From a virus, in IMG/VR virus record IMGVR_UViG_3300037258_000038, positions 1 through 47,945 of that record: DNA of 47,945 nucleotides; one strand, given 5' to 3'. Shown in pieces: positions 4,703 to 35,077 of the stretch. A program made the position numbers and the translations under genes. The notes below the pieces were generated by a model. It saw nothing but the letters and a program-made list of their open reading frames with translations, did no database searches and was not told the origin of the DNA. The first letter of the stretch is position 1; the number at the start of each line of letters is the position of its first letter.

Positions 4703-5133
4703 TCGAGCGATTTGCAGATGAGCTAGAAGCCGACCTCCAACGGTACTACCAAGTCGACCTCCTAGACCTTTACCGGCCTAAGAGCGGCTTGAGCTACCGG
4801 AAGATGTCCGTCTTCATAAGCTTCCTGCCCCCGGAGTCGGCGACAGCGACGGCGATACGCAATGCTGCCGTTGATTCCGGGGAGTCGCAAGACGGGCCAT
4901 CTCCCGATCCTTCTAAGGAATCCTGGTCGCAGGGAACCATGCTGATAGCTAGCCTGATAGATGAAGTCCGATGGCTAAGGCATGAGTTCCGTGGCGCTAA
5001 CAGTAACACCCCTGGCCCACCGCCTAGTCAAGTGGAGCGGCCCGGAGTGGGCGGCAAGAAGCGCCGCAAGAAGATGTCTATGCAGGACCGAATGAAGCTG
5101 GACCCGAGAATGCGTGGGGAGCGTGGCAACTAA
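4370..5133 (+). CDS. Tail assembly chaperone, -1 frameshift product (gpGT-like)
   Basis: The open frame from 4648 to 5133 has no good start of its own: its first codons lie inside the short chaperone gene in the -1 frame. A -1 slip at GGGAAAA (4675-4681) joins 104 codons of frame 0 to 150 codons of the second frame, giving about 254 residues. The junction reads SRGK then IQAVAQVVERFADELEAD. The extension is helical and ends in a basic tail (KKRRKKMSMQDRMK). Such GT fusions are needed in minority amounts for tail assembly. Its stop overlaps the tape measure ATG (TAATG). Confidence 0.88.
4675..4681 (+). other. Programmed -1 ribosomal frameshift site GGGAAAA
   Basis: In the chaperone frame the heptamer reads G GGA AAA, matching X XXY YYZ. 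After a -1 slip the codons are GGG AAA, so both tRNAs can re-pair. The zero frame ends at 4702 and the -1 frame stays open to 5133. This is the canonical position for the G/GT frameshift of siphoviruses. Confidence 0.9.
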
Positions 5134-8100
5134 TGGCTGATGAAATCTTCGTCGGTAGCGTCGCCGTTGGGCTTGTCCCATCCGCTGAAGGCTTCGCCGA
5201 AAAGGCGCGGAGCGCTCTTGTCCCGTCCGCCAGCTCCATCGGCGATGAATGGGGCAGTAACTGCTCCGATAGAATGCAAGCCGGTCTAGGCAACATCCTT
5301 TCGACTTGGGGCGCGAAGCAGACCGAGGTAGCCAAGACGACTGGCGCAGATGCCGGTACCGGGTATGCTGAGGCATTCAAAACCAAGGTTGACGAGATCT
5401 TGGCCGAGATCGACTCCGAGGTAAACGTCACCGGCAATACCGAGGAGGCGCAAGCTCAGGTCGATGAGCTCAAGGCGAGCTTGGAGGAGTTGAAGAGTAA
5501 GACTATCGGCGTTGACATGACCAACACAGAGGCCATGGATGCGATCGATCAGATCAAGGTTGCCATGGATGACCTGCAGAGCAAGGGCATCCTAATCGAG
5601 GCCGACAATAAGCCGGCCATCGCGGCGATCGATGAAGTCAAGACGGCTGCAGGAGCGCCGGTAGACGTCCCGGTCATCGCTAACACCAAGGCCGCTACTG
5701 CAGCGATTGACGAACTCCGCGCGATGGCTGCGAAGCCTGTGGTAGTGCCAGTTGAGACGGCCAGTACGGGCGCAGCCGCCTCTGGTGCGGCTAGCGGTGC
5801 AGCCTCAGACTCTGCGTTGGCAGGAGGTGCACTAGCGGCTGGCGCAGCCGACACCGAGAAGGAAGGTGAGGCCGCAGCCGAAACTTACGGCTCTGGCTTC
5901 ATGGCGAAGATCACCGGGTTTCTCGGCGCGGGCGGCTCGAAGCTGTCTGACATGCGCGAGTCCGGCGCGGAGAAGTTCGCTGACAGCGGCAAGGAAGCCG
6001 GTGGCGAGTTCGGAGGCGCGTTTAGCGGCATCCTCGGCTCAGTCATGAGCATAGGCGTTCCGGCTGCGATAGCAGGCGCTGCGCTGGCGGTATCGGCCGT
6101 ATACGGGGAGAAGCTTGAGGGGGCCGAGAACTCGCTTAAGGCCACCATGACGAATGCCGGGTATGTCTGGTCTGACTACTCCGACAAGGTCGAGGCCGTC
6201 AACAAGGACATGACGGAGTACGGCTTCACTTCCGATCAGGTCGAAGCTAGCTTGCAAAAGGTCCTGCAGCAGACCGGCTCTATGGCGGATGCGCTTGGGG
6301 CTGAGTCGACTATCGCCAAGCTAGCTACTGCGACTCACGTTAGCCTCGCCTCCGCAACGACGACATTCGACCGGGCGCTGACAGGCAATGCGAAGACCCT
6401 TAAGCAGTATGACATCATTCAGGCTAGCGGCGCGACGTCTGGTGCGGCTATGACTAAGGCCCAGCAGGACTTGGCCAACCAGATTAACCAGAGCGGCTCT
6501 ATGGCGGCATTCGCGGCCTCGAAGCACCTTAGCCTGGCACAGGCGCAGGACCTGGTAACCTCGGCTGCGGGCGAGTCCGCTCCTGCGCTTAGCAAGCTCT
6601 CCGACCTCGGATTGAGCTATACCTCGGCGACCAAGCTGCAGACTGACGCTATGTCCGGTAGCACGAAGGCGATGGCTACGCTCAAGAAGGATCACTTGAC
6701 GCTAGCTCAGCTCACTCAACTGAACACGGACTCGGTTTCCGGCAACATAGGTGCGTACAACAAGCTCGGCATCGAGGTCCTACCCAAGTCGGCGAGCGCT
6801 GCGCAGAACTATGCGCAGGTGCAAAGCATCCTGAATGATAAGCTCGGCGGTCAGGCTTCGGCCGTCACTGACTCATTCAGCGGTAAGATCCATGCTCTCG
6901 GCGCGGAGCTAATCGACGCGGCCGAGGGAATCGGTATCAAGGTCATGCCGGCGCTCGATGAGGTCATTGGGTTCCTGGTTAAGATGGTGCCGACTATCGA
7001 GGCGGTCATTAGTGCGATCAGCAAGTTCGGCGGCTCGTTCATAATCGTCTCCCTGTTCACGGGGGTTAGTACTATCCTCAAGGTGCTGCTTGGCGGGCCT
7101 ATGAGGGACATCACCCTTGCGATTGCAGGGCTAGTGATCGGATGGCTCGCGCTTAACGTAGCCATGGAGGTAAACCCGTTCATCGCTATCGGCACCGCCA
7201 TCGTGTTGCTGGTAGGCATTGTCGTCAAGTACCATGCCCAGATCGTGAGCGTGATTGAAGGTGCATGGAATACCGTCACCAACTTCCTCAAGCAGTGGTG
7301 GCCGCTAATAGCCGCCATCGTTACGGCCGGCATGTCGGTGATTGTTCAGCTAATAATCAAGTACCACCAGGACATAGTCAACGCCATCGAGGCGGCTTGG
7401 AATGCGGTCGTCGCTTTCATAAAGCAGTGGTGGCCTGTCTTCGCGGCTGTGGCCACTTCTGGAATGTCGCTGGTCGTGCAGATCATAGTGAAGTATCACC
7501 AGGACATAGTGAATGCATTCGAGACGGCTTGGAACACTATCAAGTCGACTGTGACGGCCGCATGGTCCTGGATGCAGGCGGCTTATAACGCGGCTACGTC
7601 GGCTATCTCTACGGCCTGGAAGACGGCCTGGGCCGCTATCGTTGCCTACTTCACGGCCGAGTGGACCGCTATCAAGACTGCTGTGACATCGGCGTGGAGC
7701 TGGGTGCAGGCGGCCTACAATGCCGCGCTCGCCGCAATCAAGGCCGCTTGGAATGCTGCTTGGCTCGCGGTCTACAACTACCTGAACACGACCTTCACGA
7801 ATGTCAAGAATGCCGTGACCGCTGTGTTCACGTGGATGAAGTCGACGTTCACCAGCGGCGTGTCGGCCATTAGTACGGCATGGAAGACTGGATGGACTGC
7901 CGTAACGTCTACCACTACCACGGTGATCAATACGATCAAGACCGCGTGGAATACATTCTTTAGCGGACTGCAGACTGCCTTCAAGGCGGCTGTGTCGGCT
8001 ATCGGGTCGATCTGGAATGGCGTGCAAGCCGCTGTCCAGAAGCCGGTGTCGTTCGTGATCAATAGCGTGTATGACCCGATCGCCAAGGTGTTCGACAGCG

Positions 8101-24265: not shown

Positions 24266-26566
24266 TCAGTCCTCTGGGTCTATGACGTATATTTCATCAG
24301 CGAATACTGACGTCCCAAAGCCGGGCGACTTCCGGCCCCGCACAACGACGATATCCCTACTAACGGCGATTGACTCTAGGATCTTCCGGAACTTGGGGAA
24401 GGTGAACCGGGTAGTACGCACATACACCTCTTCATCGCCATCATCGAAGCAGCGCAGTACGCAGTAGTCCTGCAGCTCCGGGCGCTTCATCCTCTTGAGG
24501 ATATCCGGTAGCTCATCGCCCGTCCGCGAGCGGTCGTTCTCTGCGGCGTTCTGGTACTCACGAGACTTCACGATCCCCATGTATACGACGAATGACCCGG
24601 AAGTCCTCTTCCACGTCGACTGGCGAGCGCCGCGCTTGTCAACGCCAAGCTGCTTGTCATATTTATCCATGACGGCCATCTCGTTGCCGGTTGTGTTCGG
24701 CTTTGGCACCGGGATGTCGCCCGCGTCGATTGCGTCGCGGACTTTACCGAGGACGGTAGCCGCGTGCGTTAGGCCAAATGGGTCGTGGCCGGAACAGAAC
24801 GCGTCCCAAGCCTGGACCTTCTTAGGCCCGATGCCGGGGATCGCCTCAAGGTCGTGCCAGGTCGAGTACTCGCCATTCTCCTCGCGGAACGCGTCAATCT
24901 TCTCCGCGATTTTGTCGCCCAGTCCAGGGATTGTTGACCAGCCCGCTAGAACTGATGGACGCCCGTCGTAGTCGATCGCTATCGGCCTCCAGCGGCTTGT
25001 ACTCTGGCTCACATGCGGCGGCCTCACTCGGATCTCGTGCTTCTGCGCGTCCTTCATGAGACGGAATGCGGCATCCTCGTGCGAGGCTTTCGACAGGGAC
25101 GCAGCATAGAACTCCGCAGGATGGTGAACTTTGAGGTAGGCGCACCACCATGCCAACATAGAGTACGCCACGCTGTGGGCATTTACAAATGAGTAGGTCC
25201 CAGAGGTGACCAGCCGCTTCCATATGCGTTCCGCAAGGTCTGGTTCGATATCGTGCAGTCGCTTGGCACCCTCGACAAAGCTGCCCATGCTAACCTGGAA
25301 GGCAGCTTGGCCGAGTTTCTTCGAGATGATCCGCCTGATTTCGATTGAGTGGCCCCAGTCGAAGCCGCCAATCTCGCGGACAATCTTGAGGATCTGCTCC
25401 TGGTAGATAATGCAGCCCTTTGTGAGCGCCGTAATCTCGTCCACAACCGGGTGATAGCTCTCGGCCTCTTTGCGGCCGTGTTTGACTTCGCAGTAGTCAG
25501 CAGTCGTACCGCTGAATAGCGGGCCTGGACGCGCAAGTGCATTGACATCCGATACCTCAGCAAAGCTATCCGGATGTACATCTCGGTTGACGAGTCGTGT
25601 CGCGCGCCCTTCAAACTGGAAGAGTCCGACGACATCTCCATCCTGAAATACGGATAGAGTCTCTGGGTCATCGTCGGGAATCGCATACAAGTCATCCAAT
25701 GTTAGGCCGGCCATCTTGAGGCATAGCGAGATCATGCCCATAGTCGATAGGCCGAGGAAGTCCAGCTTGAGCATACCCGCGTACTCGCAGTCATACTTGT
25801 CGACCGAAAGCGCGCGGACCCCCTTCTGCTCATAGACTGCGCAGACGTCGGTGAGAGGCGAGTTCGCGACGATGATGCCGGCCGCGTGAACTGACATACC
25901 CTTGGTGTTGCCTTCGAGGCGCGCAGCCTTCCAGAGATCGGGATGCCGCTCGAATACTTCCTTAGCATTCGGGAACATCTCCACGGTGTCCTCCAGAGAG
26001 GAGTCAAACCGTGAGTCGCCACCCGAACGCTCTATGATTAGGTCGCTGACAATCTTGACCTCGTGTTTGGGAATGCCATAGACAAGGCCGACGTCGTTGA
26101 GGGCATTCTTCGCTCGATAGCGAACAAAGTTGGCGATCTGCCCGACGTGATCCGCGCCATACTTCTCGGCTAGCCGGTCGCGGACTCGCCATCTATCTTC
26201 ATCTGAGCAGTCAATGTCGATGTCAGGCGGATCAGCCCGGTTGAGGTCGATGAAGCGCTCGAACATGAGAAGTGGATGTCTGATAGGATCAATCTCGGTG
26301 ATTCGGAGTAGCCAGCAAACAACACTCGCAGCGCTGCTTCCACGTCCTGGACCGAAGGATATCTCATTGCCCTTCCCCCATCTAATGATGTCAGACACGA
26401 ACAGAAGGTAGTCGGACAGGTCTTTCTCGGTAAAGATCCCCATCTCATACTTGGCTCTTGAGACATACCATTCTTGTTCGGCCTTTGGCCGTCCGTCAAG
26501 CGCGCGGAACTTCCAGCCGTAGCGGAGCCACTGCCATAGGAGTTCATTACCGGCTAGGATGTCCAC
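24266..26566 (-). CDS. dnaE: DNA polymerase III alpha, polymerase core (C-terminal part)
   Basis: 766 residues, the replicative C-family polymerase. The palm has GPGRGSSAASVV (72-83) and the catalytic D115-I-D-I-D119; LDFLGLSTM and YSFVNAHSVAYSMLAWW follow as finger motifs. A HhH unit (LEAIPGIGPKKVQAW, ~580) and a C-terminal OB-like domain are present. The PHP domain is in the previous ORF in another frame. GTG 26566 has GAGGAGG ten bases upstream, so it can start on its own, and it overlaps the PHP ORF by 13 bases. PHP plus core would give about 1075 residues, normal for DnaE. Confidence 0.9.
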   Translation of the reverse strand: MDILAGNELLWQWLRYGWKFRALDGRPKAEQEWYVSRAKYEMGIFTEKDLSDYLLFVSDIIRWGKGNEISFGPGRGSSAASVVCWLLRITEIDPIRHPLLMFERFIDLNRADPPDIDIDCSDEDRWRVRDRLAEKYGADHVGQIANFVRYRAKNALNDVGLVYGIPKHEVKIVSDLIIERSGGDSRFDSSLEDTVEMFPNAKEVFERHPDLWKAARLEGNTKGMSVHAAGIIVANSPLTDVCAVYEQKGVRALSVDKYDCEYAGMLKLDFLGLSTMGMISLCLKMAGLTLDDLYAIPDDDPETLSVFQDGDVVGLFQFEGRATRLVNRDVHPDSFAEVSDVNALARPGPLFSGTTADYCEVKHGRKEAESYHPVVDEITALTKGCIIYQEQILKIVREIGGFDWGHSIEIRRIISKKLGQAAFQVSMGSFVEGAKRLHDIEPDLAERIWKRLVTSGTYSFVNAHSVAYSMLAWWCAYLKVHHPAEFYAASLSKASHEDAAFRLMKDAQKHEIRVRPPHVSQSTSRWRPIAIDYDGRPSVLAGWSTIPGLGDKIAEKIDAFREENGEYSTWHDLEAIPGIGPKKVQAWDAFCSGHDPFGLTHAATVLGKVRDAIDAGDIPVPKPNTTGNEMAVMDKYDKQLGVDKRGARQSTWKRTSGSFVVYMGIVKSREYQNAAENDRSRTGDELPDILKRMKRPELQDYCVLRCFDDGDEEVYVRTTRFTFPKFRKILESIAVSRDIVVVRGRKSPGFGTSVFADEIYVIDPED

Positions 26567-27493
26567 GGGGCCATGTCCTCCTCGGTTGGGCGGTACTGGA
26601 GCCGGTCGGCCTTTGGCAGCGTCACATTGCAGAGGCTAGCAATATGTGCGGCCGACTCGATCGACTCTATAGCTGCGGCCCGGCTCAAGCCTGTGGCCCT
26701 GACCTTCCTCCACATGGCGTTGGTGTCGTCGGGCAACGTTAGCCGGACGTCGTACTCCCAGCCTTGGCTTTGCTGGTCGATGGTCTTCCCGCCCCGGTCG
26801 GCCGCGTGGATAATGACCTGCATCTCGTTATCATCCGGCATAGGGTAGTGGACATCCATAGTCGCGACTAGCGGGATGTCGAGTTCCTTGCCTATGATCT
26901 CATAGGCAGGATTGATCTTGCAGGTCTTCTCCAGCTCCGGGAATCCCTGCACTTCTAGGTAGTAGCGGTCGCCAAATAGCGCCTTGAAGCGTTCGGCTAT
27001 ACCTAGGGCCGCCTCCATGTTCATTCCACCAGCAGGTTCGGCAATGTCCTTGCCGCCTACTAGATTGCAGGCGAGCATAGACCCGGTACAGCCGGATAGG
27101 CAGATCAGGCCAGCGTTGTGCATCGCAAGGGCGCTCCCACCCACTGTTGGGTACTGATAGAAGTCCTTCCATGACTGCGTCACCACCTTGTTTAGGTTTG
27201 TGTATCCTGCGGAATCCATCGCGAGGAGTATGAGATGATACTTCGTCCGCTTGCGATTATCCAAGTCGACCGGCCCGGTGTAAGCCTCAAGGCCAAAGAT
27301 GGGCTTGATGCCATATTTGGCAGCGTCTTGCTCCGCGCGGAAGTGCGAAGATACATTGCCGTGCTCGGTGAAGGCCATAGCATCATAGCCAAGTTCCACC
27401 GCGCGTCTGATGTGATCGGCAGGCTGAGCATAACCGTCCTGCCTATTGGAATGAATACGTGGTATGGTGATGAAGAGAAACCCACTTAGTCAT
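26554..27493 (-). CDS. dnaE: DNA polymerase III alpha, PHP domain part, frame-interrupted
   Basis: The natural start is ATG 27493, overlapping the previous stop as ATGA. It reads MTKWVSLHHHTTYSFQ, the PHP motif I (HxH, then YS) of DnaE proteins, and then meets TAG at 27443-27445. The family sequence continues in another frame from GAC at 27438: DGYAQPADHIRRAVELGYDA, then MAFTEHGN and IKPIFGLEAYTG. Joining the two parts across 7 bases gives ~310 residues matching DnaE without a gap. An internal GTG at 27399 has no ribosome site and would lack motif I. Recoding, a disabling insertion or a sequence error remain possible. Confidence 0.8.
27436..27448 (-). other. Candidate 7-base translational hop (CAA-UAGG-CAG)
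   Basis: On the minus strand: TTC CAA TAG G CAG GAC GGT. CAA (27446-27448) is the last codon before the stop, CAG (27439-27441) is four bases further on and GAC resumes the PHP frame. One tRNA-Gln could leave CAA and re-pair with CAG, giving YSFQ-DGYAQP, which aligns with YSLLDG of DnaE. A +1 shift would add two residues and lacks a good re-pairing. Confidence 0.5.
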
Positions 27494-27702
27494 TCCGCCT
27501 CACCTGCCCCATCTTGCGATCCTGATTCGTTCGCATTGTTCGGGGAGCCTCCTTTGGCCCGCATTGAATTGTGGCAATGCCACAATTCGCTCCGAATGCC
27601 CTTCTTGACATCCCGGCAGTAGTCGCACAAGAGGTCTTCCTGCGTCATATTCCGAGGGCATCCGATCCATCCGCAACAGACTTTGCATTGGCAACTACCC
27701 AT
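27490..27702 (-). CDS. Small zinc-ribbon-like protein
   Basis: 70 residues from ATG 27702 (TGATG overlap with dCMP deaminase); the longer frame to 27957 is a shadow of that gene. The sequence CQCKVCCGWIGCPRN...LLCDYCRD has eight Cys in the first 40 residues, enough for one or two zinc sites, then a hydrophilic tail. It ends with ATGA shared with the polymerase start, so its translation is coupled to DNA polymerase. Possibly an accessory to replication. Confidence 0.7.
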   Translation of the reverse strand: MGSCQCKVCCGWIGCPRNMTQEDLLCDYCRDVKKGIRSELWHCHNSMRAKGGSPNNANESGSQDGAGEAE

Positions 27703-32201: not shown

Positions 32202-33038
32202 CTACTCGCTGCCTACCGGGAGTTCCATCTGCTGGATGACCCAGTCCATGATGTCATACTCGCCATCCTCGAAGTCCACGAACTTCGGCAAAGTGCCAGA
32301 GTAGCGGTTCTTGGCGAAGTATGGCGGCTGGCTATCGGTGAGAATGCGGCGTAGTTGTGCCTCGCCTTTCTTCGCCTTTGGCTTGCCGAGGTAGAACACG
32401 CTGTCGGCTTGCGCACAGACGTAGTTGGCTATCTGCAATGGGTCCTTGTTGGAGCCCATCAGCGCGGGGACGATGATCGGCTCGCCTTCGACATCTTCGA
32501 GATGCATAGCCGTAGCGACCATCAGGGTGTTGTACCTCGCGTCAATCATCCGGTCGATGAAGCGCTTGTACATGTTCCACCACTTGGGATAGTGCTGGAG
32601 TTGAGGCGTGTCGAGGTCGGAGTCACGCATATCATGCTCGGCCTCTAGGATCCAGCGCAGCAGCAGGTGCTGCATTCGGCTGATCGAGTCAGGGATGAGC
32701 CAGTCGTTCTCGCCCAACTCCTCGTCGGCCTTGTCCAGGCTCGCCTCAACATGGTCCCAGTCCATTGCACGGTAAAGGCCGGCAATCGAGCCAGTTCGCT
32801 TAGCCGATACCGCGCCGCGCTCCGTAGACATGAGGACTGTGCGACGCTCGGCCGTAGCGATGCCAGCGGCAGCGACTGTCTTCCCGATTCCGCTGTCGCC
32901 GTATAGGAGGATGTTCTTGCTCTCGTTGAAGTCGGCTAGCGACTCCTCCACGATCTGGATGGCAGGCCGGTCGGACTTGACGCGCGTCCGTAGCGGAGCG
33001 GCCCCGGCTGGCCGCTTGCGAGCGCCCCTAGGCGGCAT
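32202..33038 (-). CDS. Sak4/RecA-like AAA-ATPase
   Basis: 278 residues from ATG 33038 (TGATG overlap); the longer frame is a shadow. Walker A is GDSGIGKT at 47-54, Walker B-like ENDWLIPDSIS follows near 115-120, and RYNTLMVATAMHLEDVEG plus KRVxxK-like YFAKNRYSG appear later. This is the phage RecA-core family (Sak4) that anneals or exchanges strands with an SSB partner, which is encoded next. The Cas4-like nuclease upstream would make the ends. Confidence 0.82.
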   Translation of the reverse strand: MPPRGARKRPAGAAPLRTRVKSDRPAIQIVEESLADFNESKNILLYGDSGIGKTVAAAGIATAERRTVLMSTERGAVSAKRTGSIAGLYRAMDWDHVEASLDKADEELGENDWLIPDSISRMQHLLLRWILEAEHDMRDSDLDTPQLQHYPKWWNMYKRFIDRMIDARYNTLMVATAMHLEDVEGEPIIVPALMGSNKDPLQIANYVCAQADSVFYLGKPKAKKGEAQLRRILTDSQPPYFAKNRYSGTLPKFVDFEDGEYDIMDWVIQQMELPVGSE

Positions 33039-33340
33039 CAGGCGCCGTACATGGGCGGAACGACGTCGGTCTTGTAGTCCTCTATGCCGTATGCGCTCGC
33101 CTCTGGTTCGGCGTGGAAGCGCGTGACCTGCTCCAGCGTCCATTGACCCTGGAGGAGTGACGTCTCGACATGCGGGCACGTCGTACAGCCGAATAGCACG
33201 ATGGTGGTAGACGGCGTAAGCGGCGCATTGAACCCGCGCTGGCAATCGATTGCGTGTAGTTCGTGCTCGTGAGCCTTTGGCGGCCTATCCGGCGGCGTGT
33301 TCTCGGCTTGCGGCAGGTCCTTATTCCATTTGATCCACAT
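33038..33340 (-). CDS. Small Cys/His protein between Cas4-like and Sak4 genes
   Basis: 100 residues from ATG 33340 (MWIKWNKDLPQ). It has LHAIDCQRGFNAP and GCTTCPHVETSLLQGQWTLEQV, with CxxC-H and an upstream Cys/His that may form one zinc site. Coding signal is clear in this frame, yet the upstream nuclease frame runs through it for 259 bases. It overlaps the Sak4 start (TGATG). Confidence 0.7.
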   Translation of the reverse strand: MWIKWNKDLPQAENTPPDRPPKAHEHELHAIDCQRGFNAPLTPSTTIVLFGCTTCPHVETSLLQGQWTLEQVTRFHAEPEASAYGIEDYKTDVVPPMYGA

Positions 33341-34311
33341 AACTCGCTCGCTGACTTCCTGTGATCGGCGTAGGGGTCGACTGCGTTGAAGGAACTTCGC
33401 TTGTACGCCTTTACGGCTCGCTGATCCCCTTTCTCGTCCAGAACACAGAGGTCGAAGTAAGGGCATTTGGGACAGCGGTACGAAGTGTTCTTCGTAAGCG
33501 GAACCTTACCCTCACGAACGGCGCGCATGAGTAGCGCGTCATCGCGAATGCGGCTCAATTGCCGGTTGACCTCGCCCGGAGTGCGCTCGACAACCTCGCG
33601 ATGGAACTCGGCTGGCGGCTGAACCTTGGAGCGCTCGCCATTCTTATTCAGGTAGAAGCCTTGCGGGTCTTTCGGCCGCTCATCCGGTTTCGCTTTGCGG
33701 AGGTAGTTGTACAACACCCCGTCAATTGCATCGCCCGGCTCGATCAATTCCAGCGCGCGGAGTACTTGCGTTGCTACGGCGAAGTATGTCCCGGCTTGGT
33801 CGTCCAGCGCGAGGAATGCCGTAGCGATGTTAGCCGCTGTCTTGTGCTCCCAAAGGTAGATGCCATCATCCGAGTGATCCAGTAGCGCGCCGTCGAAAGT
33901 CCCCACAGCAGTGACGACATACTCGCCTTTCCCGTTGAGGATGTCAACCTGGAATGGTTGTTCGATCGCTAGCGTCTCTAGCTCGTCATCCTTGCCGTAG
34001 CGAGCTACGTAGCGCGTTAGCATGGACACGCCGAGTTCTAGTGCATCGGCGAACTGGGCCTGGCCCTGGTCGTTGTACCCGGCAGGAATGAGTTCGCTTT
34101 CCTGCGAGGCCATCCACTTCTTGAACGTCGTGACCGGGCGAGGTCCGCGACGGAAGCCGGGTTTGTACCACTCGGCGAGCGCGTAATGGACGGCTGTGCC
34201 GAACCAGAAATGCGGGGCTGGCCGGCCTTTGGGGCTAAGCCATTCCATGTAGCGCCACCACCAGGCCTGATGGCACTCACGGAACAGCTTGCGCTCGCTC
34301 GTGCGCAGCAT
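33082..34311 (-). CDS. Cas4/RecB-like PD-(D/E)XK nuclease, with run-on C-terminus
   Basis: 409 residues from ATG 34311; about 324 are family-like. Motifs: FRECHQAWWWRYMEWL with first Cys, GTAVHYALAEW, GTFDGALLDHSDDG--LWEHKT (the D-E-K nuclease centre), QxxxY-type YFAVATQVLRALE, and CPKCPYFDLC completing a possible Fe-S cluster. It would process DNA ends for Sak4. After ASEL the frame passes TGT at 33337-33339, where neighbouring junctions have TGA, and adds 86 Arg/Ser-rich residues. The start is uncertain; a TTG at about 34323 is also possible. Confidence 0.8.
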   Translation of the reverse strand: MLRTSERKLFRECHQAWWWRYMEWLSPKGRPAPHFWFGTAVHYALAEWYKPGFRRGPRPVTTFKKWMASQESELIPAGYNDQGQAQFADALELGVSMLTRYVARYGKDDELETLAIEQPFQVDILNGKGEYVVTAVGTFDGALLDHSDDGIYLWEHKTAANIATAFLALDDQAGTYFAVATQVLRALELIEPGDAIDGVLYNYLRKAKPDERPKDPQGFYLNKNGERSKVQPPAEFHREVVERTPGEVNRQLSRIRDDALLMRAVREGKVPLTKNTSYRCPKCPYFDLCVLDEKGDQRAVKAYKRSSFNAVDPYADHRKSASELCGSNGIRTCRKPRTRRRIGRQRLTSTNYTQSIASAGSMRRLRRLPPSCYSAVRRARMSRRHSSRVNGRWSRSRASTPNQRRAHTA

Positions 34312-34318
34312 AACCTCG

Positions 34319-35077
34319 TCAGTCAAAGTTATGTCCCGGCTGGATATCTTCCTCGACAATCTTGGCCTTGGGAGGCTTAGCCGCATGCGGCCAGTCGCTT
34401 TTGGCGTCGCTGATGTCATCGGGGTGCGCTTCCTCAGCAGCGCGCTTCTCCAGGGCAGCGCGCTGTACGGCGAATGGGTCGCCTGGCAGCGCGCCGACCA
34501 TGCGTTCACCGGGCGTGTAGCCAAGACCGTATGCATTGCCGGAATCCTCGCGGCCATACGTCGGTAGCGGAACTTTGTTTAGCCGGATAGCCGTTTCGGC
34601 CTTGTTGACCCAGCCGCGAGAGAAGATCACGCGCAGCTTGCGGGCTATAAGCGCGTTCAGCGTGTCGGCTTCGCCGGTGCCCGCATCCTTTGCATCGAGC
34701 CAGAGCGTGATCATGCAGAGAGTCGAGACGATGACATCGGCCATCTCGGCCTCGACATCTTCGTGCGATCCAGCGCGCCTAGCGAAACCACGCCAGCGCC
34801 GGTACGCGCCGATGAACTCGCCTGCCTCCTCGGCGACGCACATCGCCTGCTGGTCCATCCACTCCGTATTCGTCGCGCCCTGCATCGCGTGCGTTCGCAG
34901 TTCGCTAACGAGCAGGCCGATGATCTCTGGCAAATTGCCGAGGTCTAGCGGCGTCTCCAAGGCAAATTCGGCCTCTTGCTTGGCCTTCGCTGCCTTGATC
35001 TCCCAGCGGCGCTTGGCGTTCATCGCCTTAAGCGCCTCATACGCTTCCTGCTCGCGTGACTTTCCTTGCTCTTCCAC
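34319..35077 (-). CDS. MazG-like nucleotide pyrophosphohydrolase
   Basis: 252 residues with GTG start at 35077, chosen because AGGAGG lies seven bases upstream; the longer frame from 35176 has no such site. The central domain has the MazG pattern: CVAEEAGEFIGAYRRW (EExxE-like) and EAEMADVIVSTL (ExxD), which bind Mg and (d)NTP. The N-terminus is a Lys/Glu-rich helix, the C-terminus Pro/Lys-rich and probably disordered. It would remove non-canonical or excess nucleotides or lower host (p)ppGpp signalling. Confidence 0.8.
   Translation of the reverse strand: MEEQGKSREQEAYEALKAMNAKRRWEIKAAKAKQEAEFALETPLDLGNLPEIIGLLVSELRTHAMQGATNTEWMDQQAMCVAEEAGEFIGAYRRWRGFARRAGSHEDVEAEMADVIVSTLCMITLWLDAKDAGTGEADTLNALIARKLRVIFSRGWVNKAETAIRLNKVPLPTYGREDSGNAYGLGYTPGERMVGALPGDPFAVQRAALEKRAAEEAHPDDISDAKSDWPHAAKPPKAKIVEEDIQPGHNFD

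Follow-up and report, generated by a model that had tools for sequence, protein, structure and literature searches.

To our knowledge, gene 60 of phage T4 is the only well-established natural translational bypass in bacteria and their phages. Precedents for ribosomes crossing a gap include this gene with its homing endonuclease, stop-hops, and the two-of-three pairing of Magnusiomyces mitochondria (PMC5009743, PMC2988022), and slow codons in the A site are a known condition for hopping (PMC5009743). Here we analyse a window of viral DNA (the whole 47,945-nucleotide stretch of IMG/VR record IMGVR_UViG_3300037258_000038), for which an earlier sequence-only reading had proposed a T4-like hop over a UAG in the DNA polymerase gene dnaE, and compare it with dnaE loci from other viral contigs and from cultured phages. 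A literature search found no paper describing such dnaE interruptions.

Results

The dnaE gene of the window is interrupted within the PHP motif

The LHxH...DG and TEHGN motifs that characterize the PHP domain of bacterial and phage DnaE are both present in the window, but in two reading frames of the minus strand. The ATG of the first piece (27493-27491) overlaps the TGA of the upstream gene (27492-27490), and the locus is composed of the following elements.

27490..27702, minus strand: Cys-rich ORF of 70 amino acids upstream of dnaE, family unassigned, no HNH match
27446..27493, minus strand: dnaE 5' piece, MTKWVSLHHHTTYSFQ, 16 codons, from alignment with relatives; holds the HxH of the PHP metal site
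27446..27448, minus strand: putative take-off codon CAA (Gln)
27439..27445, minus strand: 7-nt insertion TAGGCAG (equivalent placement AATAGGC), by comparison with the uninterrupted locus L016, TTCCAAGAC
27439..27441, minus strand: putative landing codon CAG (Gln), followed by the resume codon GAC (27438-27436)
26554..27438, minus strand: PHP domain continuation, DGYAQPADHIRRAVELGYDAMAFTEHGN / DGYAQPADHIRR, DGYAQP...EDMAPWTS and then a stop; a separate PHP gene, as in Wollypog and Pharpay
24266..26566, minus strand: DnaE polymerase part, whose own GTG start overlaps the PHP gene stop; a natural split

An in-frame TAG (27445-27443), the first codon of the insertion, lies right after CAA, and the continuation frame opens at GAC 27438, exactly 7 nt past CAA, and closes at 26556-26554. 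The sequence-only reading had described an ATG at 27493 coupled to the previous stop and followed by TAG, with a continuation in another frame 7 bases after the last sense codon; these coordinates proved exact on the minus strand (CAA 27446 to GAC 27438). Its further claim, that both halves fit the PHP motif without a gap, is borne out by a protein alignment with seven phage DnaE, in which the LHxH...DG spacing is fixed, and by L016, the nearest relative at the site, which reads TTC CAA GAC with no interruption. The change in the window is therefore +7 nt, TAGGCAG. The second part lacks the first strand, as its match to Pfam PHP (PF02811; E=5e-29) does not begin until profile position 12. Because two histidines and an aspartate are metal ligands in DnaE/PHP domains, the insertion parts the ligands of a single site. 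Taken together, the two out-of-frame ORFs make up one conserved protein, as expected of a T4 gene 60-type interruption.

No ATG, GTG or TTG was found in the resumed frame from its preceding stop to GTG 27399, which, followed by ATG 27378, is the next start after the break. A hop over the gap predicts a single tryptic peptide, WVSLHHHTTYSFQDGYAQPADHIR (joined product YSFQ-DGYAQ), and a +1 shift predicts WVSLHHHTTYSFQR and QDGYAQPADHIR. A prfB-type +1 frameshift is not supported: no GGAG/AGGA-like Shine-Dalgarno element lies just before CAA 27448, the move from CAA to AAU would proceed without re-pairing, and RQ would be added within the invariant spacing. Folding of the region from -45 to +45 gave no sign of a take-off stem loop (z=0.17). 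An exact DNA search of viral contigs for the junction returned no match, and no close relative of the window was found at the nucleotide level.

The second break, at 26554/26566, was considered as an error or frameshift and rejected as such, since an ordinary split is found in relatives too: Wollypog, Pharpay and many viral contigs are divided at the same PHP/Pol place, and the C-terminus of the PHP gene (EDMAPWTS*) resembles that of Wollypog (EDLIPWTK*), with similar ends in Pharpay, L015 and L047. The split in relatives often has extra ORFs or an HNH gene between the parts. Elsewhere in the window (33038-34557), an exonuclease-like ORF appears to continue beyond KSASE, where its C-terminus would be expected, in a frame overlapping the next ORF, which may reflect a lost stop or a frameshift.

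Insertions recur at the same site in dnaE

We surveyed 117 unique dnaE loci using the distance from LHxH to TEHG as a yardstick; it is exactly 99 nt in 106 of them. Plaque-isolated phages and further viral contigs also carry short insertions within the same ~10 codons, and the insertion lengths, 2-9 nt across the class, imply differing frame changes. The contig loci that depart from 99 nt include the following, besides the window (+7).

L047 and L055: +2, TT, after HHHS
L062: +2, CT, after HHHS
L243: +7, TTATCGC, after HH
L037 and L049: +6, in frame, HH-TTA-HH
L015: +3, TTA

With the natural PHP/Pol split left out, frame breaks occur at five loci in the ~16 N-terminal codons and at one, L050, in the other ~1030 codons. 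Clustering of five of six breaks in ~16 of 1046 codons has p ~5e-9, or 3e-7 when L047 and L055, which may share one event, are counted once. Two polymerase genes carry additional sequence that may represent inteins, namely, in L062, an in-frame insert of ~270 aa within the polymerase part (4871-5682) and an excess of ~150 codons over its sisters in the dnaE of Wojtek (L327).

Among cultured phages, the interrupted plaque isolates are Leopard, Aikoy, Wojtek, OtterstedtS21, DoobyDoo, NovaSharks, Erutan, Ranch and Xenia2, with the alleles given below as first piece, insertion and continuation.

Leopard (Mycobacterium phage): MEYVSLHHHS, TAGCC (+5), TFSYGDG; one HNH gene
Aikoy: MEYVSLHHHSTFSY, TGAAC (+5), GDGYG; another HNH gene, not that of Leopard
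Wojtek: MGKKMHWVSLHTHSTFSY, TGAC (+4), GDGYG; HNH gene present
OtterstedtS21, DoobyDoo and NovaSharks: Wojtek-like, +4; HNH C-terminal remnant only
Erutan, Ranch and Xenia2: HTHSTFS, TAGGTGGCC (+9), YGDG; a third HNH gene

Onyinye, the sister of Leopard and Aikoy, has an intact site with no HNH gene beside it. Among the Gordonia phages of the genus Lambovirus, Lambo, the intact sister compared with Wojtek and Erutan, is uninterrupted as well. The allele of Erutan, Ranch and Xenia2 sits in three different downstream backbones. Xenia2 underwent three plaque purifications and was sequenced at 921-fold Illumina coverage (PMC11385102), so sequencing error is no general explanation. The sequence-only reading had allowed that a dying gene or an assembly error would look the same, which is unlikely as a general account given that the interrupted genomes are viable plaque isolates; in the comparison with related phages that it had proposed, the nearest relative is intact and other contigs and isolates are interrupted. 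Sixty phage DnaE records, sampled across the ranking, included no further truncated N-terminus, indicating that the interruption is rare.

In Leopard (gp82), Wojtek (gp72), OtterstedtS21 (gp79), DoobyDoo (gp78), NovaSharks (gp80) and Xenia2 (gp80) (loci L326, L327, L331-L333 and L336), the annotated DnaE starts downstream of the PHP motif, and an upstream dnaE ATG with a strong ribosome-binding site is unannotated. The interruption accounts for this downstream placement, and the DnaE start given in GenBank may be wrong for several phage genomes.

The insertions are linked to HNH genes and to a recoded gene start

Most insertions lie directly downstream of an HNH gene or an HNH remnant. Within the survey, an HNH ORF immediately precedes dnaE in L037, L044, L047, L055, L062, L198 and L243, corresponding to 5 of 8 inserted loci versus 2 of 109 others (Fisher p 7e-6). 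The gene adjoins the interruption itself in L037, L047, L055, L062 and L243, and likewise in Leopard, Aikoy, Wojtek, Erutan, Ranch and Xenia2. The Pfam matches above cut-off are HNH_3 for Erutan and Aikoy and NUMOD3 for Wojtek, the other HNH calls being sub-threshold or motif-based. No HNH match was found in the window, and HNH scans of viral contigs yielded no new dnaE-linked cassettes.

A truncated copy of the first codons of dnaE persists upstream of the HNH gene in L037 and L044. In L044 (798-860) it is an old dnaE start with HH-TTA-HH, and the working dnaE downstream has no insertion, an arrangement that suggests repeated cassette insertion at one site. In the Mycobacterium phages Wanda, Dove and Pound and their relatives, a relative of the Erutan HNH gene overlaps or adjoins a DNA primase/polymerase gene, which is a possible further target for such cassettes.

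Comparison of the interrupted isolates with uninterrupted sisters revealed that the first piece differs by synonymous changes only: 7 of 10 codons for Onyinye/Leopard (7/0 synonymous/nonsynonymous), 10 of 14 for Onyinye/Aikoy (10/0), 6 of 12 for Lambo/Wojtek (6/0), 3 of 11 for Lambo/Erutan (3/0) and 5 of 11 for DumpTruck/Xenia2 (5/0). Past the insertion, just 3/224 and 6/224 codons differ in the Onyinye group. A recoded start joined to a near-identical remainder indicates that the HNH cassette brought in a foreign copy of the first codons together with a ribosome-binding site of its own; this copy ends at the insertion. Carrying such a copy of the dnaE start resembles a rescue of the targeted gene, and the synonymous divergence may have built up in the donor gene before the insertion arose.

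Slow codons lead the insertions

The leading codon of the insertion is UAG, UGA, UUA or CUA in all nine events compared, distributed as follows.

UAG: Leopard, the Erutan class and the window
UGA: Aikoy and the Wojtek class
UUA: L047/L055, L243 and L037/L049 (and a tenth event, L015)
CUA: L062

A stop lies directly after the take-off codon in the window (UAG) and in four isolate alleles, and UUA is rare in the surveyed dnaE genes (15/20,551 codons). These slow-codon classes were picked post hoc; allowing a factor of three for each event still leaves a binomial probability of ~2e-6.

The flanking codons follow no single rule. The sequence-only reading had stressed matched Gln codons, and in the window CAA and CAG do encode the same amino acid; flanks are identical in L062, L037 and L049, the HH-UUA-HH alleles having CAT/CAT in L037 and CAC/CAC in L049 and in the remnant of L044. 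These latter alleles share the logic of a classical hop, with nine bases giving one amino acid. As a general account, a codon-matched hop was rejected, since it fails at base 1 in Leopard, Aikoy, Wojtek and Erutan, where the landing codon matches the take-off codon at positions 2 and 3 only. One possible source of such matching is two-of-three pairing of the kind proposed for yeast mitochondria; another is a 2-nt overhang duplicated during break repair. Across the insertion alleles there was no consistent signal of conserved RNA structure and no shared stimulator, and a nascent-peptide signal like that of T4 is unlikely given the short nascent chain.

Discussion

We judge it an evenly balanced proposition that the allele of the window belongs to a recurring class of insertions made by HNH homing cassettes, with ribosomes probably crossing the gap. 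In the proposed mechanism, HNH homing-endonuclease cassettes would place insertions of 2-9 nt at the conserved PHP motif and re-supply a synonymously diverged ribosome-binding site, start and first 10-14 codons of dnaE. The small junction insertion left behind would probably also make the site resistant to the endonuclease. Ribosomes would then slow when a stop or a rare UUA/CUA occupies the A site, a fraction of them would slip or hop by way of the peptidyl-tRNA (from CAA to CAG over UAGG in the window), and translation would resume in the downstream frame to yield a full-length PHP domain. The homing component, with an endonuclease target and immunity conferred by the insertion, is modelled on T4 mobA/gene 60 (PMC5009743, PMC2988022). 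We infer gap crossing from conservation on both sides of the break, the slow codons, the viability of the isolates, the spread between backbones and the persistence after HNH loss. The window lacks both an HNH gene and a close sister; its allele is assigned to this class because the insertion resembles the others in kind, lies at the shared motif and starts with UAG, and it probably shares the origin of the HNH-linked alleles. More tentatively, and falling somewhat short of an even judgement, actinobacteriophages may harbour 'home-and-rescue' cassettes, in which an HNH endonuclease aimed at an essential polymerase travels with a synonymously recoded start and several unrelated cassettes converge on tiny insertions, led by a stop or UUA, that ribosomes cross; a single gene of bacterial viruses would then hold many short natural bypasses.

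The strongest rival, above all for Erutan and the window, is that translation stops and restarts, the first piece being a leader and DnaE being made from a downstream start with a PHP domain devoid of its first strand and HxH ligands. Annotators chose such downstream starts, five events begin with a real stop, Erutan, Ranch and Xenia2 contain UAG-GUG, and plaques may form without PHP activity. Restart fits poorly with L047, L055, L062 and L243, which have no stop at the break (it comes 15-180 codons further), and with L047 and L243 in particular, where 54-56 codons of the resumed frame pass before a start appears. In addition, the downstream starts, which sisters do not share (NovaSharks, Xenia2), are not preceded by a clear ribosome-binding site, and the strong ribosome-binding site of the cassette and the conserved N-terminal codons would be useless. 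We consider restart unlikely, if still a serious contender.

A recent disabling insertion, in a phage that uses the host polymerase or manages without PHP, is improbable. Random insertions would break the frame in 2/3 of cases, near the observed share, and the window allele has no sister from which to judge its age. Against such a loss of function, the remainder of dnaE is conserved and unbroken in every case, an allele has spread between backbones, one has outlasted HNH loss in three isolates, and the N-terminal copy changed synonymously only. Still less probable is a gene in pieces, in which a separate N-terminal peptide of 10-16 residues would complete the PHP barrel in trans; we know of no precedent at the ~10-residue size. 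DnaE of these phages often already consists of PHP and Pol chains, and functional split enzymes produced by HNH insertion are known (PMC2988022), but the piece here amounts to one strand of about ten residues, and alleles without an immediate stop would gain an unrelated tail. An artefact in the metagenome contig of the window, a single uncultured record with nothing close at the nucleotide level, is very improbable, as a 7-nt non-homopolymer insertion is an unusual platform error and the same insertion class occurs at the same motif in plaque-purified isolates, one at 921-fold coverage.

If ribosomes do cross these gaps, the insertions would constitute a second, repeated and much shorter set of bypasses, for which intact sister phages provide controls. 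The minimal requirements for ribosome hopping would become directly testable in cultured phages that grow on laboratory hosts, and the alleles would illustrate how homing endonucleases coexist with essential genes.

Comparison with known systems

Like T4 gene 60 with mobA, the dnaE alleles combine a short non-coding insertion in a replication gene, a UAG after the take-off codon, an out-of-frame continuation and a linked HNH gene. The T4 gap differs in spanning 50 nt between GGA codons, with a take-off stem loop and a nascent peptide signal, and its bypass has been demonstrated experimentally; the dnaE insertions are 2-9 nt long and often have unmatched landing codons, no stimulator was found, and their bypass is predicted from the DNA. 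The window also departs from the mobA/byp cassette in having no adjacent HNH gene, which its interrupted relatives do possess. The T4 logic invoked by the sequence-only reading thus gains from the same site being interrupted elsewhere, usually beside an HNH gene as gene 60 lies beside mobA, and the hop itself stays a prediction.

Synthetic stop-hops and hungry-codon hops in E. coli likewise use a slow A-site codon between flanks read by the same tRNA, which CAT-TTA-CAT and CAC-TTA-CAC fit exactly; the dnaE alleles are natural, reside in phages and in several cases would not permit full re-pairing. The candidate UUA bypass in the terminase of Streptomyces phage Hau3 also involves an actinophage gene, a short gap and UUA in the A site, although it concerns another gene, its source states no HNH link, and the dnaE sites also use stops. 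The byp elements of Magnusiomyces capitatus mitochondria are many short disabling inserts that are crossed in translation with imperfect landing codons, but there a mitochondrial ribosome traverses 81 sites, compared with one gene in bacterial phages. Finally, the split nrdA of phage Aeh1 (mobE) likewise has an HNH gene within an essential enzyme gene, and the PHP/Pol split of DnaE is similar. The pieces of NrdA are large, separate proteins, unlike the N-terminal piece of dnaE; split NrdA and the split gene 43 polymerase represent association in trans on a larger scale than the dnaE peptide.
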